Assembly (NCBI RefSeq): GCF_000402035.1
Contig: NC_021287.1
Coordinates: 744,001 to 808,000 of the forward strand
DNA: 64,000 nt
From: Caballeronia insecticola
GTDB taxonomy: Bacteria; Pseudomonadota; Gammaproteobacteria; Burkholderiales; Burkholderiaceae
Direction: 5' to 3'
The notes under the pieces: model-generated
Told to the model about the DNA's origin: nothing
Databases searched by the model: none
Seen by the model: the letters and a program-made list of their open reading frames with translations, nothing else
Position numbers and translations under genes: made by a program
In this document: positions 4,150-27,580 of the stretch, piece after piece
How the letters are laid out: every line of letters begins with the position of its first letter
Position numbering within the stretch: position 1 is the first letter of the stretch

Positions 4150-4195
4150 AACCGGACAACGCCTTTTCAAACGTGATGCGCGCTCATTCTGCTAA

Positions 4196-8300: not shown

Positions 8301-9748
8301 TGGAACTCAACGGGTTTCCCGAGTGGATCGCAGCATTGGTATTAGCATGGCCCACCGCGGTAGAAGACGTGTTGGTGCGAGAGGTCGCGAGCAACCTAGA
8401 CGAGTCTACACCGGAAGGACATTACACGATACTTGACGCGATTAGCCGTAGCGATGATCGCCTTGTGCGCCTGATGTCACCGGCCCTGATGCGCGAACTG
8501 AACGCCCGACCTGACTTGAACAGGGCTGCACTGCGGCCGTTGCTGTTCATCCTAAAGCGTGGCCTGTCCGGTAACTGGAAGCAGGCGCTCTACGAGCTGG
8601 TGCTAGGCAGATTTCGGTCGTCTGCAGAGCCGCAGGTCAGTGCGCAATACCTAGGCGTTGCATATGCGATCAATGCGCAAGATGCGACGGACAGCCTGAA
8701 AACGAAGCTAGATGTGATGGGCGAAGCGGAGAAAAAGGCGCTCGTTGAGCGTGTACTGCCACAGATTTTCGGTTCTCGGTGGTCGCTCACTGCACCGTCT
8801 CAAGTGCATCTCGACGTAGCAACGCTGGAACGCCTGGTCCTGCTCGCATACAGCACTGTGCGAATGGAAGATGACCGGGACCGCACGAATAAGGGCGTAT
8901 ATTCGCCAGACGAACGTGACGAGGCGCAGGAGGCCCGCTCCGCCGCATTCAATGCTCTGGTTACCATGCCAGGGCATGCCACGTATTCCGCGATCCTGCG
9001 TCTAATGGAGGCGCCCAATTTTCCGGTGGCTCGATCGCGCCTGCTCGCGCTGGCACAGGAACGAGCAGCCAATGATGCGGAGCATACAGTCTGGCGCGGC
9101 GATGAGCCCTTCCAAGTTGAGCAGCAGTATGAGCGGCAGCCGGTGACCGGACAGGAACTGCAAGTTGTGGTGCTGCAGCGCCTGGAAGATCTGCAACACG
9201 ACCTCGTTCACGGTGATTTCCAGCAAGGCACCACCTTGAGCGCGCAGCCTGACGAAGCGGCTGTACAGAATTGGTTGGCAGATCGACTAAGACAGGCGCA
9301 GGGAACATCATATTCGATTGAGCGCGAGGTGCGAGTTGCGGACGAGAAGGAGCCAGACTTGCGATTCCGGGCGAAGGCCAGCGACGCGAATGTGGCTACT
9401 GAAATCAAGGTTGCGGAAAGCTGGACGATGCAGCAGCTTGAGGACGCGCTGATCAAGCAGCTATGCGGCCAGTATCTACGCGGAAAAGATGGTCGCGAGG
9501 GCATCCTCCTTCTGGTACACCAAAAGCCGCGTCCAAAAGGCTGGGAGCTTCCCGATGGCACTTTTCTGAACTTCGGGGCGGTGGTGGAGCGGTTGCGTGC
9601 TTTGGCCGCACGGATCCGAAGTGAATCAACCGCAGGCCCGCAGCCAGAACTCTGCACGATCGATGTTTCTAGTTGCGTTCATCTTGTCGAACGTCGCAAA
9701 TCCGTCCCTAAGAGGTCGGGGCGAGCGAGCAGAGACACTTCCGCTTAA
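5360..9748 (+). CDS. Giant P-loop NTPase with C-terminal PD-(D/E)xK-like nuclease
   Basis: A 1462-residue protein. I take the ATG at 5360; an upstream frame adds only nine residues. Near the N-terminus are Walker A (AEAGSGKTEE, residues 51-60), Walker B (GWFFIDSIDEAK, 110-121) and a following strand IVLSGRHTDWEF (147-158), as in NACHT/STAND-type ATPases. About 1100 residues of helical, Leu/Arg-rich sequence follow, probably alpha-solenoid repeats that sense a ligand. The last 170 residues carry EPDLRF (D1333) and VATEIKVAES (E1348, K1350), spaced like PD-(D/E)xK nucleases. The layout (ATPase, sensor-like repeats, nuclease) is that of antiviral STAND proteins, but the nuclease is at the C-terminus rather than the N-terminus as in Avs proteins. 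I cannot assign it to a named system. It is transcribed alone. Confidence 0.75.
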   Translation: MTTIPLNRQFYEWKESTDWGAYSRYRVAAGFSDGLLGWPELLARRRVVILAEAGSGKTEELAEQARQQAAAGRFAVYATVQDVGRDGLDKALRPADRQRLTAWRNSSEPGWFFIDSIDEAKLDNVRLERALRQIAEGIADGEGRAHIVLSGRHTDWEFARDAQRLKEELPLPRDNPAEPLPTLENLVRQVLRNEKRPEPTPAETPLIVVMAQLNIGQVRTYAAAKGAPDLDGLMAAIEAGSLWGFACRPLDLDWIVRYWHRHGRLGNFSVMIEVGLRERLQETDPERSRRDRLDAVRAQHGLERIGAALVFGRQSTIAIPDNVAELRSEGTAAKIDDVLPDWSSEDRIRLLTRPVFDPATFGRARLHNDNEGAVRSYLTARWLQRLRRANLPQRRLHDLLFSRTYEVELVRPSMSEVAAWLALWDESVAAEVVRRAPFLLFTAGDPAHLSFETRRTLLTAMVERMRRDEEVPLLDLSSLARFAQPDIAPALRDIWVADKGHGEIRRFVLRLIWLGKIGNCTDLAISASFGQYGDLYTAMTAGRALLATGDEGTRRRYAEYIKLHCASMSPTLVWEAVEDLFPQLISVDDLVAILAIVQIGDAEGGGFNFEWHGAELVERLSSAADLTRLIEGLLKQLEAGPQPDIGERSPRDEQYAPALGAAARCLLDVSPPHLAPNAAIDALLRIGDRRLNMRNRRSEGESGAVVLLLQTPERRRAAFWRAADRLRNHRTLMGRPLLHRFQMEFLGWSSGLVLDDIDWLLLDGASRTHATERQLAINSALNLWSTSGESAALKARIAGVAATDAEMRAAYVEWMTPRMKSAKEIKSEEELAESVREAERKRSEQELSWIAFIEDLRANPEQLRRLNPTTTTSVDGRMYSLWQLLNQATPTNSRYAIDNVEPIRELVGQEVATAFAAGLPGIWRAWRPTLRSARPPSERNLVSTIDCLGLTGISIEAAVRSDWAQHLTEQQAIRAAEYATLELNGFPEWIAALVLAWPTAVEDVLVREVASNLDESTPEGHYTILDAISRSDDRLVRLMSPALMRELNARPDLNRAALRPLLFILKRGLSGNWKQALYELVLGRFRSSAEPQVSAQYLGVAYAINAQDATDSLKTKLDVMGEAEKKALVERVLPQIFGSRWSLTAPSQVHLDVATLERLVLLAYSTVRMEDDRDRTNKGVYSPDERDEAQEARSAAFNALVTMPGHATYSAILRLMEAPNFPVARSRLLALAQERAANDAEHTVWRGDEPFQVEQQYERQPVTGQELQVVVLQRLEDLQHDLVHGDFQQGTTLSAQPDEAAVQNWLADRLRQAQGTSYSIEREVRVADEKEPDLRFRAKASDANVATEIKVAESWTMQQLEDALIKQLCGQYLRGKDGREGILLLVHQKPRPKGWELPDGTFLNFGAVVERLRALAARIRSESTAGPQPELCTIDVSSCVHLVERRKSVPKRSGRASRDTSA

Positions 9749-10134
9749 GGGCGGAAGGACTTATTCATTGACGGTGAGAAGTGGTGAACTTGCAGCCGAC
9801 GCATCGCCCCGTATCGCCGAACGTCGGCAATGGTCAACACGAGCCCAATGCTTAAGGTGCGGCCCGGCCGCTCCACTTTGTTACCGACCGTTCGGACCAT
9901 GAGAGCCCGACCGGCGGCAATGGGTCGGGCTGCGGCAGTCCGCTCTTCGAACTTATAGCTGGAAAGCGGCCAGTCGGCAGTGCGTACTCCCGACCCGTGG
10001 CGGTCGTTAACAACTTGTGAGCGAGCGTCCGCACGTAGTCGCATAGCGGTCATCGAAGTCGTCTTGCTGAAATGCGGCCGTGATTCTTCGGCAGGCAGCG
10101 GAGACCGTCGAGTGGCGCCGCGCCTGCCCGGTGC
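9749..10134. other. Gap with dispersed repeat
   Basis: Between the convergent NTPase gene and the CusF-like remnant I see only the second copy of the dispersed repeat and no gene. Confidence 0.5.
9926..10000 (+). repeat. Dispersed degenerate repeat, copy 2
   Basis: GGCTGCGGCAGTCCGCTCTT ... CTTATAGCTGGAAAGCGG ... GTGCGTACTCCCGACCC closely matches copy 1 at 4780-4880 in the same orientation. The two copies bracket the NTPase gene. Confidence 0.5.
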
Positions 10135-10383
10135 TTACTGCTTTGCCATCTTCACAAGGATCTGCGTCCCGTCCACGTTTTCGACACGCACTTTGACGTT
10201 GTCGCCTTCCTTGATGCTGTTGACCATCACCGACTCTTTCGTCTTGAAGGGCCATCGCCATGGCCGGCATGCCGACATTGGTGGGCACCCGTGCTTTAGC
10301 GTCACCATGCCGCTTATCGAACCGCTATGCTTGTCCGCAGCCGTCGGTTCGAGGTTCTTGATCCGGCCGCATCGGCACAGCAT
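10135..10383 (-). pseudogene. CusF-like copper-binding protein, frame-shifted
   Basis: The frame ends in FKTKESVMVNSIKEGDNVKV and VRVENVDGTQILVKMAKQ and earlier has SGMVTLKHG, both typical of CusF/CopK-like periplasmic copper chaperones. Between these parts the frame reads nonsense (CPPMSACRPWRWP). A neighbouring frame there gives VPTNVGMPAMAMA, the Met-rich metal site expected at that point. Two compensating frameshifts have therefore replaced the metal site. The upstream end runs into the DUF6602 stop codon, so the signal peptide is also missing. It is most likely a dead remnant of a copper-efflux operon. Confidence 0.6.
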
Positions 10384-10385
10384 GT

Positions 10386-11552
10386 CTACTTGAGGGGCTC
10401 CCAATCCGCAGCGTTCAGACTACCCATAGCCAGCGCATACAGGTCACCGTCAATCGTCACGTCCAGTACGTTTAGCAGGGTCGAAAAATGGTCTGTCGGC
10501 ATGTTTTCCTCTGTTGACGGATTGGCTTGAATTTTGTCAATTCCCAGAAAATTGTCTGGATTGTACAGATAGAGTAATGCATTCATCCCGGTTGAATTTT
10601 CGGCTACGCCCAACGGCAGTTTTCCGAATTGCTTCTTAAGTAAATCGGAATGGCGTATTTTTTTGGTCTTCGCGCACCAAGCCACGATCTTTTCTAGAGT
10701 TGATTCTTTGAGGCGGGCCGGAACTGGTAATTTTCCGTCGAACGCCACTTGCGCCTCCGTAATTCGACCGAATACCGAAAAACGACCGATCTTAACTCCA
10801 GGGGAAAAATAGCGCTCCAATTCAACCGGCCCGAGCTTCATGCGTGAGCACATATCGTGTATAGCGCAATAAAATTTGAACAGACTGTCGTTGCCATACT
10901 TCAGCGGAACCGAGATGCATTTATTTGTTATAGTCTCACTGTCTAAGCAGGTTTCAAACAGATGCTGATGATGAATGCATCCCTCATTCAGGACGCATAT
11001 GTGATTTGGCCAAGTTGTGGGAGAATTTTTTGACTCCCACTCTTTCAGGTTTTCGTACAGGGAATCTATTGAGTTCCCATCTAGTGAGTAAGCAAAAACG
11101 ACGCCAAACGGTCTAGGCCTAGGGCGGACGATGGTGAACCCACTCCCCATAGGCTCCGCAATTGCACCGCCGACAGTCATCTCTTTGAAGACTTTTATTT
11201 TTTCCAGGGCGTCAAGTAACTCGGCTTTGGAAAGGCCTGACTTGACCTCAATAATTCCGTAGACGGAATCAATGGGGTAGATTTGATTATCTTCGTCATA
11301 GTGCAGCGAGAGGCCGTACATTGAGTCATAAACAACGATGTCGCACTGCCTAGATACGTCGCGTACATGTCCTACCACTTCCCCTGCGCCTAAGCCATAC
11401 TTGGCGGGCAGGCGGCCTTTTGCTAGAAAGTCACGAAGCGTGTTTTCGCGGGCAGTGCCACGAGTGCCTTTATGTACGAACTGCGCGGCCAGCTCAAAAT
11501 CACTGCGCATTTTGTCGCTGACCGCGCGGAACAATTGCTTGGCGTCCATCAT
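10386..11552 (-). CDS. DUF6602 family protein, PD-(D/E)xK nuclease-like
   Basis: A 388-residue protein starting at 11552, with GGGGAG upstream. Residues 30-110 show the DUF6602 pattern: KGTRGTAREN, a Leu-Pro-x-x-Tyr-Gly-Leu-Gly-x-Gly turn, then CDIVVYD (D71) and VYGIIEVKSGLSK (E102, K104). The last two elements match the D...ExK active site of restriction-type nucleases. The C-terminal 250 residues show no motif I know. DUF6602 genes are often found in defence islands and near restriction systems. Here the gene converges on the giant NTPase-nuclease with only remnants between. The DNA is visibly richer in AT than the core genes, which suggests transfer. Nuclease activity is inferred from motif spacing. 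Confidence 0.7.
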   Translation of the reverse strand: MMDAKQLFRAVSDKMRSDFELAAQFVHKGTRGTARENTLRDFLAKGRLPAKYGLGAGEVVGHVRDVSRQCDIVVYDSMYGLSLHYDEDNQIYPIDSVYGIIEVKSGLSKAELLDALEKIKVFKEMTVGGAIAEPMGSGFTIVRPRPRPFGVVFAYSLDGNSIDSLYENLKEWESKNSPTTWPNHICVLNEGCIHHQHLFETCLDSETITNKCISVPLKYGNDSLFKFYCAIHDMCSRMKLGPVELERYFSPGVKIGRFSVFGRITEAQVAFDGKLPVPARLKESTLEKIVAWCAKTKKIRHSDLLKKQFGKLPLGVAENSTGMNALLYLYNPDNFLGIDKIQANPSTEENMPTDHFSTLLNVLDVTIDGDLYALAMGSLNAADWEPLK

Positions 11553-12138
11553 TTTTGCTCCCCTTGACGCGCTTTAATTGACCGCGTCGCGTTTGTCGAT
11601 AACTTCTCTTATCTTGGCAGGAAGTGTCCCATAGATCACGTCGACGAACCGCTCGCTATCGGGCGAGTTTCGCGACTGCTGCGACTTGCGTCCGATAGCG
11701 CTCAAACCAACCAGCGACAGACGACCTGTCGCAGACAGTCTCCGCGCTTGTTGGATATCTCGTGTTTAGGCAAATGCGGACGTTCAGGATGACGACCCGA
11801 ATGGCTCTTCATGGCAGCGTTGAGGCAATGCCACCTGCGACCTGCTCGCCGAAGACCGGCCGTTGAGCGTGGGCGGACGAAACCTTGCATATCCGCATTG
11901 GATGTTGACCCGACCCGACCGCTTGTTGCCGGGTTGAAGCGGTACCAGTCACGAATTGTTCGCCTAATCGGTCTTGAATAGTTCTGGATGACTCCGCGTG
12001 CATTCGGGCCGGACGGCGACCTCGACCTTCCCTTCATGGCCAATTCGTGCTGCACTGGCGGGCAGTCGCCGAACCTATGACAGCGCCAAGCCGGCGGCGG
12101 GTGAGCGTAGCGTACGAATTTCCGTTGCCGAGACTCCC
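11553..12138. other. Intergenic region, no gene supported
   Basis: About 590 bases between the DUF6602 start and the end of the MFS exporter gene. It includes GC-rich decayed sequence faintly like the dispersed repeat (around 11835-11875) but no convincing coding frame. The DUF6602 promoter should lie at the left end. Confidence 0.45.
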
Positions 12139-13398
12139 TCATATTGCGATAGAACGCTCATCCTCGCGGCATTGATGCGACAGTCTGCCGATCACCCGAC
12201 GGTGCAACGTCCAGACGACGAGGCCGGCCGCCGCGCAAGCCCACCACAGATTGCAGCCGCCCAGCGTGCCGTATATTAGTGTGCCCGCGGCTGGGCCGTA
12301 CAGCGAATGGCCAAGCCAGGCGGCGGTGAATATCCCCAAATAGCGGCCGCGGTCGCGACCGTCGCTGTGGTTCATGACGGCTAGCGTCCACGCAGGCGTT
12401 AGTAGGATTTCGGCCGCTGTGATGCAGGCCATCGTCGCGATGGCCTGCGCGGGGCCGTGGCCGACATTCAGCAACGGAAACGCGACCGCGAGCAGTAATG
12501 TGCCCCACCGACTCGCGGCGACTAAGCCGATGCGATCGATCAGCACCATAGCCGGCGCTTGAGCGACTACGATTAGGAGCGCGTTGAATGAGAACAGATA
12601 GCCGATCCAGCGTGCGTCAAGCCGATAATCTTCGGAAAGGAACAAACCAAACGCACCGTACATCTGGTCGAAGATGCCAAGTGCGATCAATTGGCCGAGC
12701 ACGAAAAGTAGGAACGCGCGATCGGCCCACGGAGATGCGGCCGCAGATGAGGATCCGCAGGCGACCGCGCGGGCGTCGACTAAATCGCGGCTCAATCGCG
12801 AGTCAGTCACTCTGGCGCGGTTGCTCGCGTGACAAATCACCAGGCCCCCGCCAAGAACATTCGCTATGCCGGCAGCGGCAAACAATATTGGGTAGCCGAT
12901 GCCTGACAGCGCGGCAGCGGCGACGCTGGCGAGCGCCACGCCGAGGTTAAAGCAGATCCTGTGCAGGCCTTGCATCCAGCTCGCATTGTCTGACGTGGCG
13001 GCTTCCATCACGAGCCGCAGATTCGCGGGCCGGAACGCGCCGTCCGCGATACCGATTGCAGGCACGATGACTAGCAGCCAGGTCACTGCGGGCAATTGCG
13101 ACAGGCCGGCGGACAAGGCACCGCTTGCGCAGAGACAGACTGCGGTGAGCTTGCGCGAGTCCACTCGGTCCGTCAAAGCCCCGCCAGCATAGGCACCAGC
13201 GACGCAACCCGCTCCGTAGGCGGCCATCAGCATTCCAATTGTTCCAAACCCGAGCGTGTAGCTGCCTCGAAAGAGCAACGGCATGAACAGCTTGACGATG
13301 ACGCTTGCGCTATTGAGCATGGTTGCGCAGAGCTGGGCGCGTACCGCGACGGGAAGCGCTAGGAAGCGGGACAACGAAGCACGAGGCTGTGTGGCCAT
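12139..13398 (-). CDS. MFS exporter of the PLP/ATP-grasp operon
   Basis: A 419-residue major facilitator protein with about 12 hydrophobic segments. The loop GGALTDRVDSRKL near residue 80 is the family's motif A, and the overall pattern resembles drug or metabolite efflux proteins. It is the last gene of the minus-strand operon 18330-12139, 61 bases after the ATP-grasp gene. An exporter at this point would be expected to secrete, and give resistance to, the product of the three enzymes upstream. The substrate is not known. The nearer family alternative is a YfcJ/YhhS-like sugar or amino-acid effluxer. Confidence 0.75.
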   Translation of the reverse strand: MATQPRASLSRFLALPVAVRAQLCATMLNSASVIVKLFMPLLFRGSYTLGFGTIGMLMAAYGAGCVAGAYAGGALTDRVDSRKLTAVCLCASGALSAGLSQLPAVTWLLVIVPAIGIADGAFRPANLRLVMEAATSDNASWMQGLHRICFNLGVALASVAAAALSGIGYPILFAAAGIANVLGGGLVICHASNRARVTDSRLSRDLVDARAVACGSSSAAASPWADRAFLLFVLGQLIALGIFDQMYGAFGLFLSEDYRLDARWIGYLFSFNALLIVVAQAPAMVLIDRIGLVAASRWGTLLLAVAFPLLNVGHGPAQAIATMACITAAEILLTPAWTLAVMNHSDGRDRGRYLGIFTAAWLGHSLYGPAAGTLIYGTLGGCNLWWACAAAGLVVWTLHRRVIGRLSHQCREDERSIAI

Positions 13399-13459
13399 AG
13401 GTCTCGAGAACGAAAGAATGGGCGATTGGCCGCAAATGCGGCCGAGCCGCTAGTCTGGG

Positions 13460-14707
13460 TTAGAGTGTGACGCGGATCTTCGCGTCGGCGGCTAGACGGG
13501 TCGCGAGCGTCATAGCTTCATTGGCCGAAGGCTGCGAAACTATGATCGAGCCGACGACGCCTTGATTCGACTCAGCCGTTTCAATCCACTGCCCGCGCGC
13601 GCGTAACTCGTTCACGAACTCCACGCCGTCGTGCGCCGCCAGCTCCGCGCCATTGGAAATGCCGTCGAAATAGCCGGAGCGAGGCATCGTCAGTCGATGA
13701 ATTGCCACGCCTCGGCTGCGCGTGGGCTGCCAGAGAAGCGGTAGACCGCACGCGACGTCGACGATCGCATGCGCGGGGTTCTGGCCGGTTGCGATCTCGA
13801 TCATGTGGCTGCCCATTTGATCGCCGACCAGACGTGGATTCATTTCAAGAATTTTGACCTGGTCGCCGTCGACGATCTTGCAGTCGATATTGATCGCGCC
13901 CACTTCGAAGCCGAGCGCATCGACGACCGGCGCGATCGCGTCGACGAGTTGCTCGGTGTTGCGGAGGTCGGCCGGGAAGCTCGCGCCTATTTTTATGAAA
14001 TGGCCGATATCACGCCCGGAGATCTTCTTGCTGAAGGCACCGATTGAAATAAGGTTGCCGCCGGGCGCGCGCAGCAGGTCGAGACAATACTCGTCACCAC
14101 CGATCGCCTCCTCGAGCAGCACACCATGTGCGAACTCCTGCCCTGACACGTCGCGCCCCCAGCGCTTGCGCGCGTCGAAGTACGCATGAAGAGCATCAGG
14201 ATGCTCGATCAGTTTGACGTATAGGCTGTCGTTGCCTGTCAGCGGCTTCGCGACAAGCGGATATCCGGCCGACGCCCCAAACTGCAGCGCATCGTCGACC
14301 GTGTGCGCTTGCGTGTAGGCAGGATTGAGCCCCGGCGCGATCCGCGCGATCGCTTCGCGCATCTTGAACTTGTCTTTGATGGTATCTACAACGTCGGGGC
14401 TATTGCCGGGCAGGTCGAGTTGCGCGGCGAGCGTCGCCGTCTGGACGACGTGAAAATCGCTTGTCGTTACGACTCCAACGATCGAATGCTTGCGCGCGAC
14501 GATGTCGGCGTGGGCGATCAGCGCGGCCGCGGACGTCGTGTCGACTACCCTCACGATGTCGCAATGCGCCAAGATCCGCTCTCCGTAGCGCTGGGGATCC
14601 GCGCTCATCAGGACGACGATGAGACCGGCGCGCTTGGCGTGCGCACACGCAACCTCGCCTGCGCCTGTGATACTTGCCTCGATGAATAGGATGCAGTTCA
14701 ACGTCAT
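13460..14707 (-). CDS. ATP-grasp carboxylate-amine ligase
   Basis: A 415-residue protein starting at the ATG at 14707, with AAAGGGAAC upstream; this ATG overlaps the previous stop as ATGA. The N-terminus (CILFIEASITGAGE) is a preATP-grasp fold. The centre has GYPLVAKPLTGNDS (ATP-binding lysine) and GVLLEEAIGGDEYCLD. Later comes VKILEMNPRLVGDQMGSHMIE, whose Glu and Asn bind Mg-ATP. This is the layout of BacD/CARNS-type L-amino-acid ligases, which join an amino acid to another amine through an acyl phosphate. With the neighbouring enzymes it probably conjugates an unusual amino acid into a dipeptide or amide. The partner substrates cannot be told from sequence. Confidence 0.8.
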   Translation of the reverse strand: MTLNCILFIEASITGAGEVACAHAKRAGLIVVLMSADPQRYGERILAHCDIVRVVDTTSAAALIAHADIVARKHSIVGVVTTSDFHVVQTATLAAQLDLPGNSPDVVDTIKDKFKMREAIARIAPGLNPAYTQAHTVDDALQFGASAGYPLVAKPLTGNDSLYVKLIEHPDALHAYFDARKRWGRDVSGQEFAHGVLLEEAIGGDEYCLDLLRAPGGNLISIGAFSKKISGRDIGHFIKIGASFPADLRNTEQLVDAIAPVVDALGFEVGAINIDCKIVDGDQVKILEMNPRLVGDQMGSHMIEIATGQNPAHAIVDVACGLPLLWQPTRSRGVAIHRLTMPRSGYFDGISNGAELAAHDGVEFVNELRARGQWIETAESNQGVVGSIIVSQPSANEAMTLATRLAADAKIRVTL

Positions 14708-15771
14708 GTTCCCTTTCGTGTAGAACGACGCGGCGCGGTCAGCTCGGCAAGCATCGCGTCCCAGTATCTTTCCGCCACGCATTCGCGCAAACGAACGCCT
14801 GTTGCGATATCACGGCTCGTTTGCGCGCCGTTTTCGTAAATCGCAGGCAGGATGATGTTGTGAAGCCAGCCTTGGGCATGCTGGGTGTCCAGTACGCTAT
14901 GCTCGGCGTAATAGTCCAACAACGACTCGTCGACGCCGAGACGGGCGCCGCCGCGGGCGATGGAGCCGAAGCGGGCTGGCGTAATTGCCTCGAGACACCC
15001 GAGATAGCCAACGCAATATAGGTAGAAGTCGCGGAAGTGCGCGAGAAACATCATGTAGCTGCCGCAAGCAAGCGCTTCCCACGGCAACGCGTCACGAGAA
15101 ATTGAACGAATGCCAAGCCCCTCAACAAGCCGCTCGAACATCGTTAGATGAAACTTGTCCGGATTCGTGCTGCCAACCTCGTCTTGTAGGTTGTGGAAGA
15201 ACTCGCTTTTGGGCGCGCCGCGGACGCCGACCTGGGCGAGCGCTAGCACGTCGTCAAACGATACGTGCACGCCAGCTTCAACCTCGATAAATCGGCGAAA
15301 CTGCGCCTCGTTCGCCTGCGTTTGGATGAAATCGAAGAGCCGGTGGGGTGTACGGCCGTCTAATCTCGAACGCGCGTCGTACCAGTGCTCGAATGCGTCG
15401 GCCGACTGAGGAAGCGACTCTTCTTTGAATGATTGCAGATCCGCATCGAGCTGCGCCTCGATGATGCGCTGCTGCACTTCGAACATGAGCGGCGAGCGCT
15501 CCACGTGATCCCGCGTGCGATTGAAGCGCCGGAACAGGATCTCGTTCAGACTCGCGTGGAGTGCATGCAAGCTGTCCTCCCGGCGCATGTCATAGGCGGC
15601 GCGCAACTGCTCGTTGAGCAAGTCCCGCAATTGCTCGCGCTCGTCGCCCGACTCCGGGCGCCGCAGACATCTTTTGAAACTGGCCGCATACGCGCTGGCT
15701 CGCACGCAACTGTAGGTAAGCGAACGGTGGTTTCCGATGTCGACAAGGTCGTATCCTTGCTGATTTAGCAT
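14704..15771 (-). CDS. Heme-oxygenase-like diiron oxidase (iron-containing redox enzyme)
   Basis: A 355-residue protein of the Haem_oxygenas_2/TenA-like fold. I use the ATG at 15771; a GTG lies one codon upstream. The metal-site pattern is intact: a helix with EAQFRRFIEVEAG, then FFHNLQDEVGS followed by FHLTMFERLVEGLG (Glu and His ligands), and DYYAEHSVLDTQHAQGW, which supplies His, Asp and His. This HxxxDxxH element marks the HDO superfamily (SznF, UndA, BesC), enzymes that use diiron-peroxo chemistry for N-oxygenation or C-C bond cleavage of amino or fatty acids. The N-terminal 140 residues are helical with no motif I know. The gene sits between PLP and ATP-grasp genes with a 15-base gap and an ATGA overlap, so all are co-transcribed. 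Confidence 0.8.
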   Translation of the reverse strand: MLNQQGYDLVDIGNHRSLTYSCVRASAYAASFKRCLRRPESGDEREQLRDLLNEQLRAAYDMRREDSLHALHASLNEILFRRFNRTRDHVERSPLMFEVQQRIIEAQLDADLQSFKEESLPQSADAFEHWYDARSRLDGRTPHRLFDFIQTQANEAQFRRFIEVEAGVHVSFDDVLALAQVGVRGAPKSEFFHNLQDEVGSTNPDKFHLTMFERLVEGLGIRSISRDALPWEALACGSYMMFLAHFRDFYLYCVGYLGCLEAITPARFGSIARGGARLGVDESLLDYYAEHSVLDTQHAQGWLHNIILPAIYENGAQTSRDIATGVRLRECVAERYWDAMLAELTAPRRSTRKGT

Positions 15772-15786
15772 CACCTTTTTGCCCTC

Positions 15787-18330
15787 TCAAGACAATAATG
15801 CTGCGCCGGCCCTGACGAATTCTGCGATCGTCCTGACGATGACCTCGGTCAGCTTCGCCATCTCCTCCGGGGTCTCCTCGCCGACTGAGAAGCGGAGGAA
15901 AGGCGGCATGTTGTCTGCCATCGCCGCGGCCGCGGAGACTCGGGTCGTGGAAAATCCGAAGCTCACGCCTTTAGTCAGCGCAACGCGCGCGCGTCGGCAT
16001 TCTTCGAGCAACTGATCTATCAGGGCATCGAGACATGCATGGTTGTTCAGCCCAGTCTTCCGCAAGCGGACCGCGACCACGCCGCCGCCGTGCGCCCAGC
16101 CAAGATTGCCCCAGTTGCTCGGGTATCCGGGGTCCAGGTGTTCGCTCAGCTCTGCATCGTCCTTAAGGCGCGCAAAGAGAGCTTCCGCGTTGCGGGTCAA
16201 CAGCGCCATCCGAGTCAGATAGATGCGGCGGTCGTAGTCGGGGAAGCGGCTGATCGAGCTCTGGTACATTACGGCGCCCAGGTTCCGACGGGCGATCGCC
16301 AGCTTGTCGGAGACCGACTTACGGCAGACCACCACGCCTGCCATCTGGAGGTCGAGTCCGAGCTGCAGATACTTGCTGCCGCTCTCGTAATAGAGAAGTT
16401 TGGGATGCTCGGGCTTGTTGAAGATCGAGAAGACGTTGATGCCGCCTGACACCATCGTGCCGTCGATTACGAACCATCGGTTGGACCAATCCCGGCCCGA
16501 TAGACGCACTGCGAAAGCTTGCAGGTCGATCGAGTTCATTGTGCCGAGGTTCGCGAGCGGATCCAGGAAGACGACCCGCGCGTCTTCTCTCTCGACGAGC
16601 TCAATAAGCGAATTTGGATGCCACGAAGGCGCACGGTGCAGATAGACGTGGCGTAGCCGCTGCAACTGCTCAAGCGCCTCGAAATAAATGTAGGGACTCG
16701 TCGCGATCACCGTCCCGGCATGCAGCACCTCTGACAGCAGGAAGCTCTCGATCACCCCATACGCGGCCTGTCCCGACGAGACAAGCAACAGGTCGTTCTG
16801 GGCCACGTCGAACCCGAGGCTCTGCAGCAACGAAATCTCCTTCTTGCGCAGCAGCATCGAGCCATACCTGTCGTAGTTCACGGTCGCGCCCGAGTTCTCC
16901 TGCGGATCGAAGAACATAACGCAGCGACTCTGATCACTGCTCGCGCTGCTCCACGACAGACTATTTCTCAAGAAGCTGTATTCCTGAATCATCAACCGAT
17001 AGGTGGCGCGCCGGTCGGCGTCGGAGTGCGGCGTGCGCAGTGTTGCGTCGAGCCGCTCGATCGCGGACCGGGTTGCGTCGACCACGTGGCGCGCGACGTG
17101 CGCATGGGCGTCGAGCCTGTGATGGTCGACATACTCGGCGTGCTGCTGTAGTTCGTCGAACAGCGTGGCGAATTTCCTCGACAGCGTGGCGAGAAGCGTC
17201 GCCCATATGCTCGAGACGTTGAGTGACAGCGGAGTTATCGCGCCGCGTGCGTCGGTTTCGGAGCACCTGTCTTTGCGGACCGTTTCGCTCGCGAGGCGGG
17301 CCGACCGGTGTCCGAGCAAGGCGGATACGCGCGGATCGTCAACACTCGTCATAAGGCACTTCGTGACCGATGCGCTCGCGATATTCCCGCCGCTGACGAT
17401 CACAACGACATTGCCGCGAAACTGCTTTGCGTCAAGATCCCGGATCAGCGGAACGAGCGCGATGGCGCCGGCACCTTCGGCTAGGACGCTCTCGTTGTGG
17501 AGCATCGCGATCACCGCGTTTCCGATGTCGGCCTCGCTGGCCAGTTCGAAACCGTCAAGCGCGCCGCGCACGCGCGCCTCCAACTCGCCGTCGAGCACAT
17601 CGTGCTGCACCGCGAGGCCATCCGCCAGCGTCGGGCGCACCGGTTTCGATAGTGCCGCATCACCAGGGCTCAACAATCTGCGCTGAAACACTTCCGGGTG
17701 CACGCCGATCACCCGTGTCTGCAGATCATGCGTCTTGAACACGGGGCTAATGCCGGCGATTAGCCCGCCCCCGCCGAGCGGCGCGATCACGGTGTCGATC
17801 GGGGCGTCGATGTCCTCAAGCACCTCGAGCGCGAGGCTACCCTGGCCGCCGATCACGTCCTCATGCGAGAAAGGCGAGATAAACGCCCCTCCGGTCGCCA
17901 CTGCATGTTCCTTTGCAACTTCGGCGGCCTCGTGCAGATCGCGCCCGACCTGCTCGACGCTCGCACCGTGTTGGATAAGCCTGCGCAGCTTGAGTTCGGA
18001 CGCGTTGACGGGCACATAGACCACACACGGAAATCCGAGCGTCTGCGCAACATGCGCAATCGCAATGCCGTGATTGCCCGCGGACGCGGTGTACACGCGC
18101 TGGCCCAGTGGCAGCTTACGAACTGCGTTGAACGCGCCGCGGACCTTGAAAGAATTGGTGATCTGATGGCATTCGAGCTTGGCCCAGACCGTCCTAGTAG
18201 GAGTGCTCAGCCATGAGAGGCGAATGAGCGGGGTGCGCAATACAAATTGACTAATATGCACGGCATCCTGTCGAATCCGTTGCACGCGGACCGTTTCGTC
18301 CATATCAAAACGATTTTCTGCCGTATTCAT
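15787..18330 (-). CDS. PLP fusion enzyme: threonine dehydratase-like + Cys/Met-metabolism-like
   Basis: An 847-residue protein with two different PLP folds. Residues 1-335 are a fold-II threonine dehydratase/serine racemase domain: SFKVRGA with PLP lysine K62, SAGNHG at 83-88 and the glycine loop PLGGGGLIAG at 184-193. A helical linker covers about 345-470. Residues 480-847 are a fold-I domain of the cystathionine gamma-synthase/methionine gamma-lyase type: WFVIDGTMVSGG, then ESGSKYLQLG (PLP lysine K653), with a C-terminal substrate motif ending in FLRFSVGEE. Both active-site lysines are present, so each half may be active. A dehydratase joined to a gamma-lyase-type enzyme could pass a reactive enamine or keto acid between sites. 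It heads the operon 18330-12139. The ribosome binding site is weak; an alternative start is Met10. Confidence 0.85.
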   Translation of the reverse strand: MNTAENRFDMDETVRVQRIRQDAVHISQFVLRTPLIRLSWLSTPTRTVWAKLECHQITNSFKVRGAFNAVRKLPLGQRVYTASAGNHGIAIAHVAQTLGFPCVVYVPVNASELKLRRLIQHGASVEQVGRDLHEAAEVAKEHAVATGGAFISPFSHEDVIGGQGSLALEVLEDIDAPIDTVIAPLGGGGLIAGISPVFKTHDLQTRVIGVHPEVFQRRLLSPGDAALSKPVRPTLADGLAVQHDVLDGELEARVRGALDGFELASEADIGNAVIAMLHNESVLAEGAGAIALVPLIRDLDAKQFRGNVVVIVSGGNIASASVTKCLMTSVDDPRVSALLGHRSARLASETVRKDRCSETDARGAITPLSLNVSSIWATLLATLSRKFATLFDELQQHAEYVDHHRLDAHAHVARHVVDATRSAIERLDATLRTPHSDADRRATYRLMIQEYSFLRNSLSWSSASSDQSRCVMFFDPQENSGATVNYDRYGSMLLRKKEISLLQSLGFDVAQNDLLLVSSGQAAYGVIESFLLSEVLHAGTVIATSPYIYFEALEQLQRLRHVYLHRAPSWHPNSLIELVEREDARVVFLDPLANLGTMNSIDLQAFAVRLSGRDWSNRWFVIDGTMVSGGINVFSIFNKPEHPKLLYYESGSKYLQLGLDLQMAGVVVCRKSVSDKLAIARRNLGAVMYQSSISRFPDYDRRIYLTRMALLTRNAEALFARLKDDAELSEHLDPGYPSNWGNLGWAHGGGVVAVRLRKTGLNNHACLDALIDQLLEECRRARVALTKGVSFGFSTTRVSAAAAMADNMPPFLRFSVGEETPEEMAKLTEVIVRTIAEFVRAGAALLS

Positions 18331-18974
18331 CTCTGATTATTTCTTTCTACCTGCGGTTACTGCTTCGCGAGGTGTTGGCGAGGCTCATCAGACGTGATAT
18401 CTAAGAGGTTAATCAACTGTTTCAGAACATTATCGATTAAGTTAATGCGCCTACGCTTTTAACCAACAGCAGCAATCAATATGTCAATCTACGCCCGCTG
18501 TAAGCCATGCGTGAGATGACCTTAAATCGAGACGGAGCGCCTGAATGAATCTCCGTCATCGTCGATTTTTAATTTCTTAACGACCCAACTTAAAATTTAA
18601 GATCTCTTAAAATTGGCAATTGCGCGCAAGCGAAGTCATAATGAACTGATCGCTTAAGCACAAAGCTATCACAAGGATCATCCAAGACGGTATCTTTGCA
18701 AACCGTTTGGGCTGAGTTTTGAGTCGCTTGGTATCGGTTGGTTGTTTACGAGTGCAAATCTCGTACGAAGCACTGACAGGGTGCTGCTGGCCTTCATGTG
18801 AGCTACAGTCCAGCTGCAAACGTCGGTCGCAGCTAGCGATGCCGAAGGTGCTTGAACCATGTTGTTGTATGGGCAAAATGCGGCGGTTCCGAAAAGAATA
18901 TCTACGGGTGCATACATCACGTGATCGGTCGAGCGGGGCGATTCCGTTACCAATGAAGTCGGAGTTAGCTTCCC
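18331..18974. other. AT-rich upstream region of the PLP operon
   Basis: About 640 bases with no supported gene. The part nearest the operon (18331-18610) is AT-rich, with TTAATCAACTG and TTATCGATTAAGTTAA stretches, and should hold the operon promoter. No terminator or riboswitch is evident. Confidence 0.45.
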
Positions 18975-19319
18975 GTGATCGATCGGTGGACACTCGTTCA
19001 AAGCAACCCGCTTGACGGTGTTTCAGCGGAAGTTTGGATCGTATGTTCCGATTCCGCCGTATCAAACGTAATAGTCTTGAGTGCCCGCAGAAAACGAAAC
19101 GACCAAGTGATAGATATCATGCAGCAAGCATTTAAAGCGGGCATAGCTGTTAATTTTTCGAAAGGTGGCGAGGCGAAGCGGCGACGGCGGCTTCGTGACT
19201 GTGCCATGGTCGAGGACTTCTCTTCACAGCTTCTGCCAAACATTTGCTCAAAACCTATTTTCGATATGCGTGAATTCGACAGTCTTACAACGATGGTGAT
19301 CGTCGATCAAGCTAGGTAA
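18975..19319 (+). CDS. Hypothetical protein upstream of HTH regulator
   Basis: A 114-codon frame ending 9 bases before the XRE gene. The first part reads WIVCSDSAVSNVIVLSARRK and the later part is basic, then EFDSLTTMVIVDQAR. I recognise no family, and the start is uncertain because no good ribosome binding site precedes it. Its support is the close spacing to the next gene; it could be a chance frame. Confidence 0.3.
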   Translation: MIDRWTLVQSNPLDGVSAEVWIVCSDSAVSNVIVLSARRKRNDQVIDIMQQAFKAGIAVNFSKGGEAKRRRRLRDCAMVEDFSSQLLPNICSKPIFDMREFDSLTTMVIVDQAR

Positions 19320-19328
19320 GAAACACGA

Positions 19329-19658
19329 ATGAAAAGCAGATTGGAAGCTTTCCGGATTCGATTACGCCGCGCGCGCAATGAACTTGGCGAGTCGCAGCGT
19401 GAATTTGCAGCACGAGGCGGCGTTACAGCAAAAACTCAATCCAACTATGAGAATGGCTCGCGAGAGCCAGATTTGCTTTACTTATACAACCTCGGGTTGT
19501 CGGGTGTGAATTTAAGCTACTTAATCCTTGGAGAGGAATTCGAGTGCCAGCTTAATCCAAATGAGCAGGCGCTCATCCGAGAGCTTCGGAAGCATCAGCA
19601 CGAGAAGCGAGACGATATCGCAGTGGGGATAATGTCCTTGCTGAGGGCTTCACGCTAG
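19329..19658 (+). CDS. XRE-family helix-turn-helix regulator
   Basis: A 109-residue protein with a Cro/C1-type HTH at residues about 10-65: RRARNELGESQREFAARGG, then a recognition helix beginning VTAKTQSNYENG and REPDLLYLYNLGLSG. The tail from ECQLNPNEQAL to the C-terminus is helical and may dimerise. The size and layout fit a phage-type or toxin-antitoxin-type repressor. It is the only regulator near the biosynthetic operon, which begins 1 kb away on the other strand, so control of that operon is possible but not shown. Confidence 0.7.
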   Translation: MKSRLEAFRIRLRRARNELGESQREFAARGGVTAKTQSNYENGSREPDLLYLYNLGLSGVNLSYLILGEEFECQLNPNEQALIRELRKHQHEKRDDIAVGIMSLLRASR

Positions 19659-20589
19659 TAGCACACGCATACCCTGAACCCGGGGCAGTGCGCTTTGGTG
19701 ACGGATCGCCTGCCGCGATCGTCGTTCATCGGAAAGGGAGGATTGAGAAAAGATTTCGACACTAGAGTTCGCGCGTGTGCGCATGCAATCTCTGAGACGA
19801 TCCATATCGCAGGCTGCGGGTGAATCAACCGGACGCGTACGGCGAATACTGTTCAGCGCGTTCGGCAGGCTAGGAGGACGAGCGGCGATCACCCAGCTTA
19901 CCGATGCGAAAGACCGCTACGAGATGGATCGACTGCCAGCATCACCCCGAGCGTCGCGGTACGGCTCGGTGCCTTCACTGACAAACTGATCGCATTGTGG
20001 CATGGAAGCGGCAAGCTGATGGGGAGGGGGTGTAAAAGTCTGGAGCGATTTGCGTTGGGACCGACCGTTCCGTCAAATTTCTACACCCGCGAAATTAAAA
20101 ATTGAGGAGTTGGCCGATTAGTGGAATCGCCGCGGCGCTGGCCTGCTGCTAGAGCACCACTTTGATGCGGGAAAAATCGCTGCTGGCAATCCGGTAATCG
20201 TCCTCTGCGCAAGGATTGCCCGACTTCGGCGTCGTTACGAACGTCGACCCGCAGGAGTGGACATTGCCCCAAGCTCAGCTTGATGCAAGCACACGCGCGT
20301 TGCAGATCGATCCTTCAATCAGGATCGCACTTATCGGTATAGAGCAATAAGAGCGATGTAAGTGACGATGCGAGCCGCTCGCGAAGGCGAACCGAACTCA
20401 TGGCTTGCTAGACGACGCGGGACGACCGACCTGCACCGATCAAGTGGCTAGAAGCTTTGCCTTGTCGAAATCGGCCCGCCGAATGTACGTGCGAGGAGGC
20501 GTAAGCCAAGTCGGTCAGATAGTCTGATAGAGCGTGTTCGTGCGTACCTTGACCGGCGCGGGTCCTAGGATGTCCGTGTAGATTAGACG
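19659..20589. other. Decayed region, no gene supported
   Basis: Over 900 bases without a credible reading frame on either strand. Short frames exist but have no ribosome binding site and no family resemblance. Codon use is patchy, as in sequence that has lost function. Confidence 0.4.
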
Positions 20590-21351
20590 CTAGGAACGAG
20601 CGCGCCGCCGGATCGCGCTGATGTCGTCGAAGAGTGGAACCAGTGTGAGCATCAAGAGCAAGCTTGCTAGAGGAAGCGTCGCGAGGAAGCCGATATGCGA
20701 GAAACTGATCGCGCCAGCGAAGCCGCCCAGCACAAACATGCCCAGTAGAGAACCCAGCAAGGAAAGGCGCGCGCGATTGGCACGAACATAGCCCGATCCA
20801 TCGGAGAAACTGCCTCGATTCCAATACAACCCTTTTCCTATCTCTATGCCGATATCGGTGATGAGTCCAGTCACGTGCGTCGTACGGATTTCTGCCTTCG
20901 AGATTTTCGTAATCATCGCGTTTTGCAGTCCCATGACGTAACAGAGGAGCGCTACGGTGAGCGGAGTGTCCAGGAGCCTGTGCGTCACAAGATGCGACCC
21001 CAGCAGCCCAAAAACTAAGAGAAGCGCAGCCTCGAGCAGCAGCGGCGTCGCGTAGATGCTACGTGCCAGACGTTGGCGTCCCCAATTGATAAGGATCGCC
21101 GATGTCGCCGCGCCCAAGATAAAAGCCGTCACAGCGCACCCAGCTGAAAGGACGAGCGTGGTTTGTCCCAGCACGGCGTTGTCGGAGATCGAGGACACTA
21201 GACCAGACATATGAGACGTGTACTGTCCAACGGCTAGGAAGCCACCCGCATTCGCCGCACCGGCAACAAAGCATAGGGTACAGCCAAGCCGCCGATTGCC
21301 TTGGTCAGTTCGGTCGGGCGAAGTAAGGCCACGAAGTAAAGCGATTGGCAT
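20590..21351 (-). CDS. DUF1275 (YoaK-like) membrane protein
   Basis: A 253-residue integral membrane protein. I choose the ATG at 21351, preceded by GGAAG, over the longer frame. It shows the DUF1275 layout: GCTLCFVAGAANAGGF in the first helix, GQYTSHMSGLVSS, then ALLCYVMGLQNAMITKIS and RTTHVTGLITDIGIE. About six to seven hydrophobic segments follow the family pattern. The function of DUF1275 proteins is unknown; some are grouped with SLC26-like or FNT-like transporters. It stands alone among decayed sequence. Confidence 0.8.
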   Translation of the reverse strand: MPIALLRGLTSPDRTDQGNRRLGCTLCFVAGAANAGGFLAVGQYTSHMSGLVSSISDNAVLGQTTLVLSAGCAVTAFILGAATSAILINWGRQRLARSIYATPLLLEAALLLVFGLLGSHLVTHRLLDTPLTVALLCYVMGLQNAMITKISKAEIRTTHVTGLITDIGIEIGKGLYWNRGSFSDGSGYVRANRARLSLLGSLLGMFVLGGFAGAISFSHIGFLATLPLASLLLMLTLVPLFDDISAIRRRARS

Positions 21352-22754
21352 AGGGCTTCCTGGTTTTTGAGCGTGGTGCGATAAATTAGCACGTGCCAAT
21401 ACGTATCTTCGTGGCAGGACGCTCTCCCATACCGCGCACATTGACGATGCTACGCCCAATCATGGGGAGAGCGCGAACCGCTGTAACAGGTGCCGACGGA
21501 ACTTTCGGTTCGCTCGGATTTTGTGCTTGAGAAGCTAAAAATTTGACCTGCTGGTGACATTAGACAATCGGCTCCGAGCATTAACATCTTTAACATGTTT
21601 TAACATCGCTTTAACATGTGCCGAATTGCCTCAAAGCCCCGCCAGTAAAGGATTCAGGGTAATTAGGGCCATGTTAAAGCCTTTAACATTTAATGTTAAA
21701 GGGGGATTTTTTCTGCGCGTGAGAGAACGCTCTGTGTCCGGGTCAAAAAGCTGCCAAGTCTCAGATACCCCCTCCCCCTAGGGTCCCAGCGTCTCGTCGT
21801 ACAACTCGACAGTCCTTGCACGGTGCATTGCAAAACTGCCGCTGTTGGCAATGGGTCGACGTCTCCATGAAGGTGTACGCGCTCACTTTGGCGACGACGC
21901 GGCATGTCCTAAATCTTTTCGGCGAGATTCTGCACGGATGACCCACAGGAATTTGCAAACTCAGTAACGACGCGGGTTTGCGGGGTGCACTTCGCCACTT
22001 TCTCGCCACTAACTTCAGGCTTTGGTACTTCGACCAACCACACCTTCTTGCTCAATTGTGCGTGGGCATCGACAACCGAGCCGAGGCCTGCCTCCAGGTG
22101 CACTAACGTTGCGCGCACAAACTCTTGGAGCATGACGCACCTGATGGTTTGGAAAGGAATTTCTTGCGTCTTGCGTCAACTACAAACGACGACGGCTATG
22201 GTACTCGTCGACCCTGACAGAGTTCGGCATGTCGCCTACCGATCGATATAACTTTTTCGGTGGAGGAAAGAATATGGTTGGAAACATGATTGAGCACGAG
22301 CCGTCGATTAAGGTCGTCGTGTTATTTAGATAGCCGAGCTCCCGCGCGCGCTTACTTCGTCGCCGGCTTGCGGCGAGCTAATTTTGCGGAGGTCCTGTCT
22401 CAGACCGGCCATCAACCGCCGTTTGCTAATGCAGGGGCGGCGTCGTTCGGATGACCGTTAATGTCGCAAGATCCGACTCTCGCGCGGCGTTATTTGGCCT
22501 GCGGCGACTTTGCATTAAAGCGCGCAGCGATCTCAAGCGCGTCGATGAGCTCGTTATAAAGGAAAATTATCTACGTCGTTTCGCCCTTATTGACGAGCAC
22601 ACTATGCAAGTTTGAATGATCAAGCTGAGCTCGCGCGGGTACCGGCCCCTGCGCTTGGCACGGGCTGCAACATGACGCCCATAAGTAGACGCGGGACGGG
22701 CACTCTTGCTCGTTCGTGAGGGGCTGCGAGTCGCCCTGATGATTCATCGGTTCA
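21352..22754. other. Long gene-poor stretch with iterons
   Basis: About 1.4 kb. It contains the TTAACAT iteron cluster (21581-21701) and a 74-codon minus-strand frame at 21909-22133 (with ATLVHLEAGLGSVVDAHAQL) that might be a small protein but has a poor ribosome binding site. I see nothing else. Confidence 0.4.
21581..21701. repeat. TTAACAT iteron cluster with palindrome
   Basis: TTAACAT occurs directly at 21581, 21590, 21600 and 21611 (steps of 9-11 bases), so the copies face nearly the same side of the helix. It occurs again as ATGTTAA at 21671, TTAACAT at 21683 and ATGTTAA at 21693. The last two form a near-perfect palindrome at 21681-21701. This looks like a replication-initiator or repressor binding array, but no initiator gene is nearby. 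Confidence 0.55.
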
Positions 22755-23050
22755 TCAACGCGATCGCTGGAAGGAATTCCGGGGCTTCGAGAATTCCGCG
22801 TCGGCGTTTGCTGCGCCCCAGACAAGTACGCCTGACGACAAGACAACCATAAAAGGCTTGCGGATGGCAGGGGAACGGTAGAAGAAGAAGCGTGCCGCCG
22901 CGCAAAGTCCAGCGACAGCGCCGGGGATAAGATAAAACTACGGGTCGCCGAAATCGAACATCTTCAAGAAATCTTCCTGGAAGTAGGGAAAGAAGCGGAT
23001 CACGAAGGACGAACGAGAAATGAGCAACCGAGTAACCCAAACTAAAGGCT
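22755..23050 (-). pseudogene. Remnant of a small membrane protein
   Basis: A minus-strand frame reads VIRFFPYFQEDFLKMFDFGDP, a TAG stop, then FYLIPGAVAGLCAAARFFFY and PFMVVLSSGVLVWGAANADAEF, ending at a TGA at 22757-22755. The protein-like sequence on both sides of the stop suggests a broken gene with two membrane segments. I do not recognise the family. It lies next to the sulfur genes. The upstream limit is approximate. Confidence 0.35.
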
Positions 23051-23207
23051 TGTGAAGATCGCCTTTTGAATACTCGCGTCACCGCGACCTAAGAATTGCG
23101 CGACACTTAACGCTACCGCGACACTGAATATAAATAATCAGCGGATGCAGGGGTAAAGCGAGAGGCCTCACGTTCATGACGGTCCCATACTTTTGCCATC
23201 TACAGTT

Positions 23208-23704
23208 CTACAGTGGCATCAAGCTATATCCATCATGTTCCAAAACGGTAAGGGTCGTGAGCGCCAAGAGCGATCGCGTGTCTCCGGGCAGAAGTGCGTC
23301 AATCGCGAAGCCGTTTGCGATCAACGCCTGCGCACAGGCGGACGCTTCCACTTCTGCGCGCTGGATTGCGGCGATCAGATTCGCATTAGGGTTCGGTGTT
23401 CCGTCGTACGCCTGATGGTGCGTATCCTGGAAGATGCTCGCTGTGGACTCACCATGAAATTTCTGTCCATCGACGAGCTTGCCTATTGTCGACCCCAACG
23501 TTGCCTCGAGCACGCCGGTCGCAGCGAACGCAAAGGCGGGGCCCAAGCGTACGTGTCCGGCACGCGCGTGAGCATGTTGATGTAGACGCTTGCTGCTACG
23601 ACGAGAATTGAACCATTTCCCCCGACAAGTCCCAAAGAAAAGCTGACAAATCCACCGCATGCTGCCTCAGCAATACCCTGGGTCAAAACAGTCGAGGCGT
23701 ACAT
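23208..23704 (-). pseudogene. TauE/SafE-family exporter, frameshifted
   Basis: The gene starts at an ATG at 23704, 19 bases after the persulfide dioxygenase stop, with AAGG upstream. Its first part reads GGFVSFSLGLVGGNGSILVV, the first TauE/SafE repeat motif. The frame then shifts; the next frame gives HAHARAGHVRLGPAFAFAAT and LGSTIGKLVDGQKF, again typical of the family. After that the similarity fades and the second half expected of a 250-residue protein is absent. TauE/SafE proteins export sulfite or organosulfonates, which fits the neighbours. This copy should be inactive. Confidence 0.6.
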
Positions 23705-23723
23705 GTTAATTAGCCTTGACGCT

Positions 23724-24428: not shown

Positions 24429-24529
24429 CGCCCTATAACCCCATAAAAAAACGCTATACCGCTTTTTCGTATAAGCTTATATCTTTATAGAATATAGTGT
24501 CGAGGGCGCCAACGTCAACTGGAGGAAGC
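24429..24529. promoter_or_regulatory. Divergent promoter with palindromic operator candidate
   Basis: An AT-rich stretch between the divergent persulfide dioxygenase and quinone oxidoreductase genes. It holds the perfect 12-bp palindrome TATAAGCTTATA (24470-24481), followed by TTTATAGAATATAG. Persulfide-sensing ArsR-type repressors (BigR/SqrR/YgaV) bind AT-rich dyads at such positions. No regulator gene of that type is in the window, so the assignment is tentative. Confidence 0.45.
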
Positions 24530-24976
24530 GTGGTGGCTTTAAATACAAATGTCTCCATTACCTATAGCGCTGTGATTGTCGGGGGAGGCGTGGGAGGGGT
24601 AAGTGTTGCCGCACGCCTGAAACACATAAGTAAGAATCTCGACATTGTCGTGGTGGATCCGTCTGAATTTCACTACTACCAACCAGCGTGGACATTGGTT
24701 GGCGGTGGCCAGTTTGACGTCGACAAGACGCGTCAGTCGATGCGCGACTGTATGCCCGCAAGTGTTGAACTTGTTCCCGGGCGCGTAACGGCATTTGAGC
24801 CGGAGCACAGTGCGGTGGTGCTGGAACGGGGCGCCAGAATCGGCTACAAGTTGCCTCGTCCAAAGATTGAAATTCGTAGTGCCGGACAGGTCGTCCTCGT
24901 GGGCACTCATGTGCCTGTGCATCAACGCGCAGTCATTGCAGGCGAAATGCGGCGGTGCGTCGCGCGGCTCGCCTAA
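24530..24976 (+). pseudogene. Sulfide:quinone oxidoreductase, truncated
   Basis: A GTG start at 24530 follows GGAGG. The N-terminal region is a good sulfide:quinone oxidoreductase: YSAVIVGGGVGGVSVAARL (FAD-binding) and FHYYQPAWTLVGGGQ, the family signature. After about 110 residues the similarity ends, and the remaining 40 residues (KIEIRSAGQVVLVGTHVPVH and on) do not fit. A normal enzyme has about 390 residues, including two redox cysteines that are missing here. An internal deletion has probably removed most of the gene. Sulfide oxidation would need another copy elsewhere. Confidence 0.7.
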
Positions 24977-25027
24977 ATTAATTTGAACTTCCGACATTGG
25001 CAAGCCGTACGGTTAACTGGAGCTGCT

Positions 25028-27579: not shown

Positions 27580-27580
27580 G

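Follow-up and report, generated by a model that had tools for sequence, protein, structure and literature searches.

What does Caballeronia insecticola make with four tightly packed genes that appear to encode a double PLP enzyme, a diiron oxidase, an ATP-grasp ligase and an exporter? The genes lie on the minus strand of a 64,000-nucleotide stretch of contig NC_021287.1, referred to below as the window. All four open reading frames were located where a preliminary description of this DNA had put them (Table 1), and the spacing given there (gaps of 15, -4 and 61 bases) holds if the oxidase starts at ATG 15771 and the ligase at ATG 14707, with the ligase frame overlapping the oxidase gene by 4 bases. 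ATG 15771 is the likely oxidase start since the second methionine is the one that opens most relatives of this protein. That the small regulator gene upstream is tied to the operon is a guess; scans of positions 11500-19400 for promoters and terminators returned sites no commoner than in shuffled sequences.

Table 1. Positions in the window of the operon, its active-site codons and the surrounding island
Feature	Position	Strand	Basis or remark
FUS, double PLP enzyme, 847 aa	15787..18330	-	threonine-dehydratase-like half and cystathionine-gamma-synthase-like half
FUS N half, residues 1-330	17341..18330	-	fold type II, serine/threonine dehydratase kind; family matches, predicted fold, K62
K62 codon, first PLP lysine	18145..18147	-	FUS alignment
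FUS C half, residues 440-847	15790..17013	-	fold type I, Cys/Met-metabolism kind; hhalign, predicted fold
K653 codon, second PLP lysine	16372..16374	-	FUS alignment
HDO, heme-oxygenase-like diiron oxidase, nearest HrmI	14704..15771	-	ATG start; frame listed from GTG 15774
HxxxDxxH motif (H292, D296, H299, numbered from GTG)	14878..14901	-	HDO alignment
ATP-grasp L-amino-acid ligase, 415 aa	13460..14707	-	LAL_C2, ATPgrasp_N, ATP-grasp_4; BL00235 match
MFS exporter (predicted)	12139..13398	-	MFS_1, 81.5 bits
Small HTH_3 (Xre-like) regulator	19329..19658	+	PF01381
Genomic island carrying the operon, ~48.5 kb	4057..52598	.	between two attachment-like repeats; left edge maybe out to ~2087
Tyrosine integrase of the island	51099..52367	-	Phage_int_M, Arm-DNA-bind_3, Phage_integrase
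tRNA-Ser (tga), insertion site	52585..52674	-	ARAGORN

The four proteins

The first gene product, FUS, shares predicted folds and catalytic lysines with the TdcB/IlvA and cystathionine gamma-synthase (CGS) families but, unlike either, joins both kinds of enzyme in one 847-aa chain. Its N half matches PALP (Pfam, residues 26-314, 212 bits) and has the PLP lysine and fold type II of that family. The C half, which the preliminary description had called gamma-lyase-like, misses the PF01053 cut-off of Pfam (20.3 bits versus 27), yet profile-profile comparison and the predicted fold confirm the assignment and rule out the Pfam miss as a sign of a non-CGS-like protein. Compared by hhalign with four Cys/Met enzymes of the same genome, it scored a probability of 97.3 (E 2e-11, 320 columns), it combines a PLP lysine with fold type I as CGS-like enzymes do, and PF01053 is annotated on many of its relatives in precomputed data. 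A nine-sequence profile of this half returned only a chance match among PDB sequences, and its identity to the CGS 7swh is just 19%. Both lysines remarked on earlier, K62 and K653, are present and invariant in 32 aligned FUS rows, and the catalytic residues of the CGS-like half are conserved. Structure prediction of the two active sites, proposed at the outset as a check, gave the expected fold for each half, with the placement of the halves relative to each other unsure (pTM 0.59). FUS probably makes an amino acid, to judge by the families to which its halves belong, and a good deal of confidence can be attached to this part.

The oxidase (HDO) matches Haem_oxygenas_2 (PF14518, 104 bits), and its predicted fold, helical and heme-oxygenase-like, matches those of solved HDOs. 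The HxxxDxxH ligand motif that had been spotted in the translation is found as H292-x3-D296-x2-H299 in each of 24 aligned HDO rows, where E199 and H209 are likewise invariant and E166 nearly so. These six residues align with HrmI, and we take them to be the three-histidine, three-carboxylate ligand set. By sequence as well as predicted structure, HDO is closest to HrmI, then to SznF, RohS and FlcD, with BesC far behind, and it stands nearer to HrmI than to the carbon-oxidising HDOs. HrmI and BelK are lysine side-chain N-oxygenases of the hormaomycin and belactosin pathways; SznF and RohS are N-oxygenases too, while FlcD is a methine-excising HDO. In structural similarity FlcD is level with SznF and RohS, in a ranking that covers the listed HDOs, so that low-ranked or unlisted ones may still be relatives. 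The identity to HrmI is 28-32%, and R185 and H170, invariant among the relatives of this oxidase, are not matched in HrmI, so that the substrate pocket may differ. According to PMC13108848, HrmI turns the side-chain amine of lysine into a nitro group, with the free amino acid as substrate, and HrmI and BesC give different outcomes on near-identical substrates, which makes inference from the nearest relative unsafe among HDOs. The nearest relatives nevertheless tilt the balance modestly towards N-oxygenation by this enzyme. Among the products first envisaged for the operon, namely an alkene-, alkyne- or N-oxygenated amino-acid conjugate, the N-oxygenated one has gained from the closeness to HrmI, and the other two have lost ground with BesC so distant.

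The ATP-grasp motifs and MFS protein of the preliminary description agree with Pfam matches of the last two gene products. The third protein, with an ATP-grasp fold and a LAL C-terminal domain, matches LAL_C2 (39.8 bits, cut-off 29.4) besides ATPgrasp_N and ATP-grasp_4, and resembles the L-amino acid ligase BL00235 (E 8.5e-12). We therefore regard it as quite likely that it joins amino acids by a peptide bond. Its best NCBIfam match, the argininosuccinate-lyase model PRK02186, reached 157.7 of 625 bits, far under the cut-off, so that the exact reaction may be another one. The fourth protein, from its family membership, likely exports the product.

Conservation and mobility of the operon

A profile scan of genome contigs with the FUS alignment yielded 17 loci. 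Relatives of HDO and of the ligase follow FUS in three: L015 of Spirobacillus cienkowskii, and L018 and L019, both of Pseudomonas. An MFS relative completes the four-gene order in L018 and L019, and three ABC-transporter genes take its place in L015. This neighborhood search, also proposed in the preliminary description, shows that the four-gene arrangement is more than chance. No HDO of this type was found near FUS in the other 14 loci, and when 12 of the 17 genomes were searched whole it turned up in three, each time at the FUS locus. The L018 and L019 regions (22 kb each) have a single block of 6,230 bp in common, 82.6% identical, which begins just upstream of FUS and stops where the MFS gene ends, with no common flanking DNA beyond it; the four genes therefore seem to be the whole transferable unit. 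Linkage among more distant relatives was gauged by a proxy, equal-sized source contigs being read as the same contig. By this measure, 15 of 24 HDO relatives have a ligase relative on the same contig and 11 of 24 a FUS relative. A twelfth HDO-FUS pairing (4248 bases) was judged accidental, the sources being different and the FUS row, P0073, lying outside the HDO-linked clade (see below). Two FUS rows outside that clade, P0017 and P0020, pair by the same proxy with ligase relatives but have no HDO match. This suggests that FUS and the ligase may form the older core, with the proviso that a more distant HDO beside these two would escape notice.

The operon is rare around its host and it is mobile. 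HDO was detected in one of 398 sampled genomes of the host's family (E ≤ 1e-40) and FUS in one of 58 genomes of its genus (E ≤ 1e-60), the window's own in both cases. Other carriers exist, since named relatives of FUS occur in Paraburkholderia and Cupriavidus. Of 101 related genomes, another 4 have a distant relative of HDO (E 5e-27 to 4e-4). Similarly, FUS is present in 3 of 398 genomes of L018's genus, with an adjacent HDO only in L018's own. The island that holds the operon is bounded by a direct repeat (22 bases at 4057-4078, matched 91% at 52577-52598) whose right copy overlaps the end of the tRNA-Ser gene. In the window, 50,593 bases separate the two flanks (positions 1801-2086, and 52680 onwards); the distance is 355-2,142 bases in ten relatives with a near-empty site, chosen from the flank matches. 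The same flanks lie about 22 kb apart in genome G049 and about 12, 8 and 8 kb apart in G036, G057 and G039, implying that other DNA inserts at this tRNA-Ser site too.

The family of the double enzyme

FUS is a member of a large unnamed family that spans several bacterial phyla and fungi and whose partner genes vary. Among 7,995 candidates scored, at least 158 are related to its C half at E ≤ 0.001. The 120 matches listed include Paraburkholderia, Cupriavidus, Pseudomonas, Rhizobium, Xanthomonas, Paracidovorax, Streptomyces and Catellatospora, as well as the fungi Pyricularia, Aspergillus and Monosporascus; the nearest named ones among them are from Paraburkholderia aspalathi (69%) and Cupriavidus necator (64%), both for the C half. 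In a 129-row tree, all 15 rows taken as HDO-linked fall in one 30-row clade with a support of 100. Four of these (the window, L015, L018 and L019) were read directly and 11 come from the same-contig proxy, two of the latter being the L018 and L019 genes themselves or near copies. The clade also has 7 rows without visible neighbors and 8 short rows labelled as C half only, 7 of them in one sub-clade; one such row, P0010, could be a fragment, as its contig is 1,962 bases long. This sub-clade lies inside the HDO-linked clade, so some settings do without the dehydratase half, and the case for channelling between the halves is the weaker for it.

The family has been seen with at least five partner sets. 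A GNAT-like protein follows FUS in L022, L032 (annotated so) and L038, and a similar stretch follows it in L021. In L025, L026 and L027 a carbamoyltransferase gene lies upstream and one for an unknown protein of ~417 aa downstream. The C half stands alone in L020 and L023, with aminotransferase, 2-hydroxyacid dehydrogenase and ABC genes, and in L024, with a radical SAM protein and a leucyl-tRNA synthetase. Another full-length leucyl-tRNA synthetase is encoded on a different contig of the L024 genome; as a lead, this hints that some products of the family mimic leucine and that the extra synthetase affords self-protection. The unknown partner proteins of the other loci gave nothing above Pfam cut-offs in searches to E 10, and one of them had no match among PDB sequences.

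A candidate pathway and its alternatives

From the observed gene content and order, conserved active-site residues, predicted folds, nearest relatives, conservation and mobility we infer the reactions and the product; the order of steps is a guess. Our preferred, still tentative, reading is that the operon encodes a mobile and self-contained pathway which, without an NRPS, makes a small peptide for export, with an N-oxygenated non-protein amino acid in it. The dehydratase half of FUS would remove the beta-hydroxyl from serine, threonine or a derivative to give a reactive enamine, the gamma-synthase half would form a gamma-substituted amino acid, and the fusion would hold the short-lived intermediate inside the enzyme. 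The HrmI-like HDO would then use O2 to convert an amine nitrogen of the FUS product to a hydroxylamine, oxime or nitro group, the ligase would couple the oxidised amino acid to a second one, and the MFS protein would export the conjugate. Counting against this sequence of events are the modest identity to HrmI, the tie with FlcD, the invariant R185 and H170, the confinement of HDO to a quarter of the FUS-bearing genomes searched whole, the C-half-only sub-clade, and the PRK02186 match of the ligase. A more specific version, that a 2-aminoacrylate or 2-aminocrotonate enamine passes to the gamma-synthase half and attacks a vinylglycine-type intermediate to form a new C-C bond, the N-oxygenase then yielding a dipeptide antimetabolite, is unlikely. 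Were it true, FUS would be a new kind of double PLP enzyme, a module for generating unusual amino acids that is deployed in several bacterial phyla and fungi with different tailoring genes.

The strongest rival orders are those in which HDO modifies a peptide or acts before FUS. The ligase might work first, on ordinary or FUS-made amino acids, and HDO then desaturate or N-oxygenate a peptide side chain. According to PMC13185094, mangotoxin (mbo) is an NRPS-free peptide made with an HDO and an ATP-grasp amino-acid ligase, as may be the case here, and MboA, an HDO from an ATP-grasp cluster, works on a tripeptide. The mangotoxin set of two ATP-grasp ligases, redox partner MboB and deiminase MboE is, however, not found among the four genes, which comprise one ligase, no counterpart of MboB or MboE, and the additional double PLP enzyme; moreover, the present HDO is nearest to HrmI, whose substrate is a free amino acid. 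We consider this order improbable, if less so than those that follow. The second, a doubtful one, has HDO act first. The gamma-synthase half of FUS would then attach the N-hydroxylated amine, by its N or its O, to an activated homoserine, and the result would be an amino acid similar to canaline or canavanine, with an N-O or N-C link. CGS-type enzymes take many nucleophiles, and the carbamoyltransferases and GNAT-like proteins near FUS relatives may be hydroxyl activators; against this, the operon has no activating transferase and FUS is its first gene.

The bes pathway, with BesB (a CGS-like PLP enzyme), BesC (an HDO) and BesA (an ATP-grasp ligase), was the original point of comparison. On this model HDO would break a C-C bond or desaturate the side chain, elimination by the gamma-lyase-like half, with its conserved catalytic residues, would leave an amino acid with an alkene, allene or alkyne group, and the ligase would conjugate it. 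All three enzyme kinds are matched. The lack of BesD noted earlier also stands: no radical halogenase is found among the four genes or in the block common to L018 and L019. Bes homology does not survive as a guiding model: with no halogenase, and an HDO far from BesC (a lysine-fragmenting enzyme, PMC13108848), this is not a bes cluster, and we think bes-like chemistry quite unlikely. Finally, a catabolic or balancing role for FUS (threonine/serine or cystathionine-type breakdown) in a nutrient or detoxification module would suit the many catabolic members of both parent families, but is very improbable for a mobile, patchily distributed operon with an amino-acid ligase and an exporter.

The operon had been called undescribed, which may apply to one part of it. 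Clusters of HDO and ATP-grasp genes are a recognised class: PMC13185094 counts 1,447 HDOs in the vicinity of an ATP-grasp ligase and distinguishes at least 25 unique clusters, and this cluster may be among the kinds surveyed there; we found no description of the FUS fusion in the literature searched. We place the operon in that class as a variant form, set apart by its double PLP enzyme, the least known part. The HrmI and BelK pathways differ in having NRPS or cyclopropane-forming genes, absent from the four here. Being small, complete-looking and mobile, the operon could allow a whole pathway to be rebuilt from four proteins, and it would serve as a test case of what directs HrmI-like oxidases to nitrogen rather than carbon. 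Since FUS belongs to a large family with several partner sets, learning what it catalyses would give access to a whole range of unknown amino-acid pathways together, some of them in fungi and plant-associated bacteria.

The tRNA-Ser island and its cargo

The operon is carried by a tRNA-Ser genomic island (see table below). Flank comparison showed the insertion site to be almost empty in ten relatives checked; in some other relatives, the site is occupied by other DNA. The island's 1471-aa protein, whose P-loop-like motif was spotted by eye, had no match in Pfam or PADLOC. The product of the adjoining DUF6602 gene was matched in PADLOC by the PD_DExK and NucC-like nuclease models, and the two genes are a possible defence pair carried by the island. 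The Mu-transpos_C_2 transposase gene is followed by a 255-aa ORF, an arrangement resembling the layout of an IS21-type element.

Features of the island and of loci with relatives of the double PLP enzyme (FUS)
Feature	Location	Position
tRNA-Ser genomic island, ~48.5 kb	window	4057-52598
1471-aa protein, P-loop-like motif GSGKT	window	5333-9748
DUF6602 gene	window	10386-11552
Transposase, Mu-transpos_C_2, followed by 255-aa ORF	window	38027-40345
DUF927/PriCT-2/Toprim protein of island	window	45355-48147
Tyrosine integrase of island	window	51099-52367
C-half-only FUS relative flanked by radical SAM and leucyl-tRNA synthetase genes	L024, Alphaproteobacteria MAG	8598-14045
FUS + GNAT pair, Pseudomonas amygdali plasmid	L032	11950-15203
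FUS + GNAT pair, Pseudomonas amygdali plasmid	L033	11950-15311

Relatives of FUS and of the diiron oxidase

In a genome of the same genus (G040, loci L012/L014), a distant relative of the operon's diiron oxidase is broken into two parts, of which one contains an in-frame TGA, and is likely a pseudogene. Elsewhere, FUS has other partners. Three loci (L025, L026 and L027) have a carbamoyltransferase gene upstream of FUS and, downstream, a shared ~417-aa protein with no Pfam match. L017 encodes a further relative of that protein, and the L026 locus continues with a condensation domain and then a PhyH protein. The FUS-GNAT pair of the P. amygdali plasmids recurs on a P. syringae plasmid, where its annotation is split into several pieces and the copy looks broken. 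Among the matches listed, the dehydratase/gamma-synthase fusion also occurs in at least six fungus-named records (P0108, P0112, P0114, P0116, P0117 and P0120; Pyrenochaeta, Monosporascus, Variospora, Lecanosticta, Aspergillus and Pyricularia), perhaps having been acquired from bacteria by transfer.

Relatives limited to the gamma-synthase-like half

At L020 and L023, C-half-only relatives of FUS are accompanied by aminotransferase, 2-hydroxyacid dehydrogenase and ABC genes and by a shared 474-498-aa protein that gave no Pfam match. Because the genome of L024 has a second full-length leucyl-tRNA synthetase, the synthetase gene at this locus suggests, as a lead, that the pathway product is a leucine mimic and the neighbouring enzyme a protected version.
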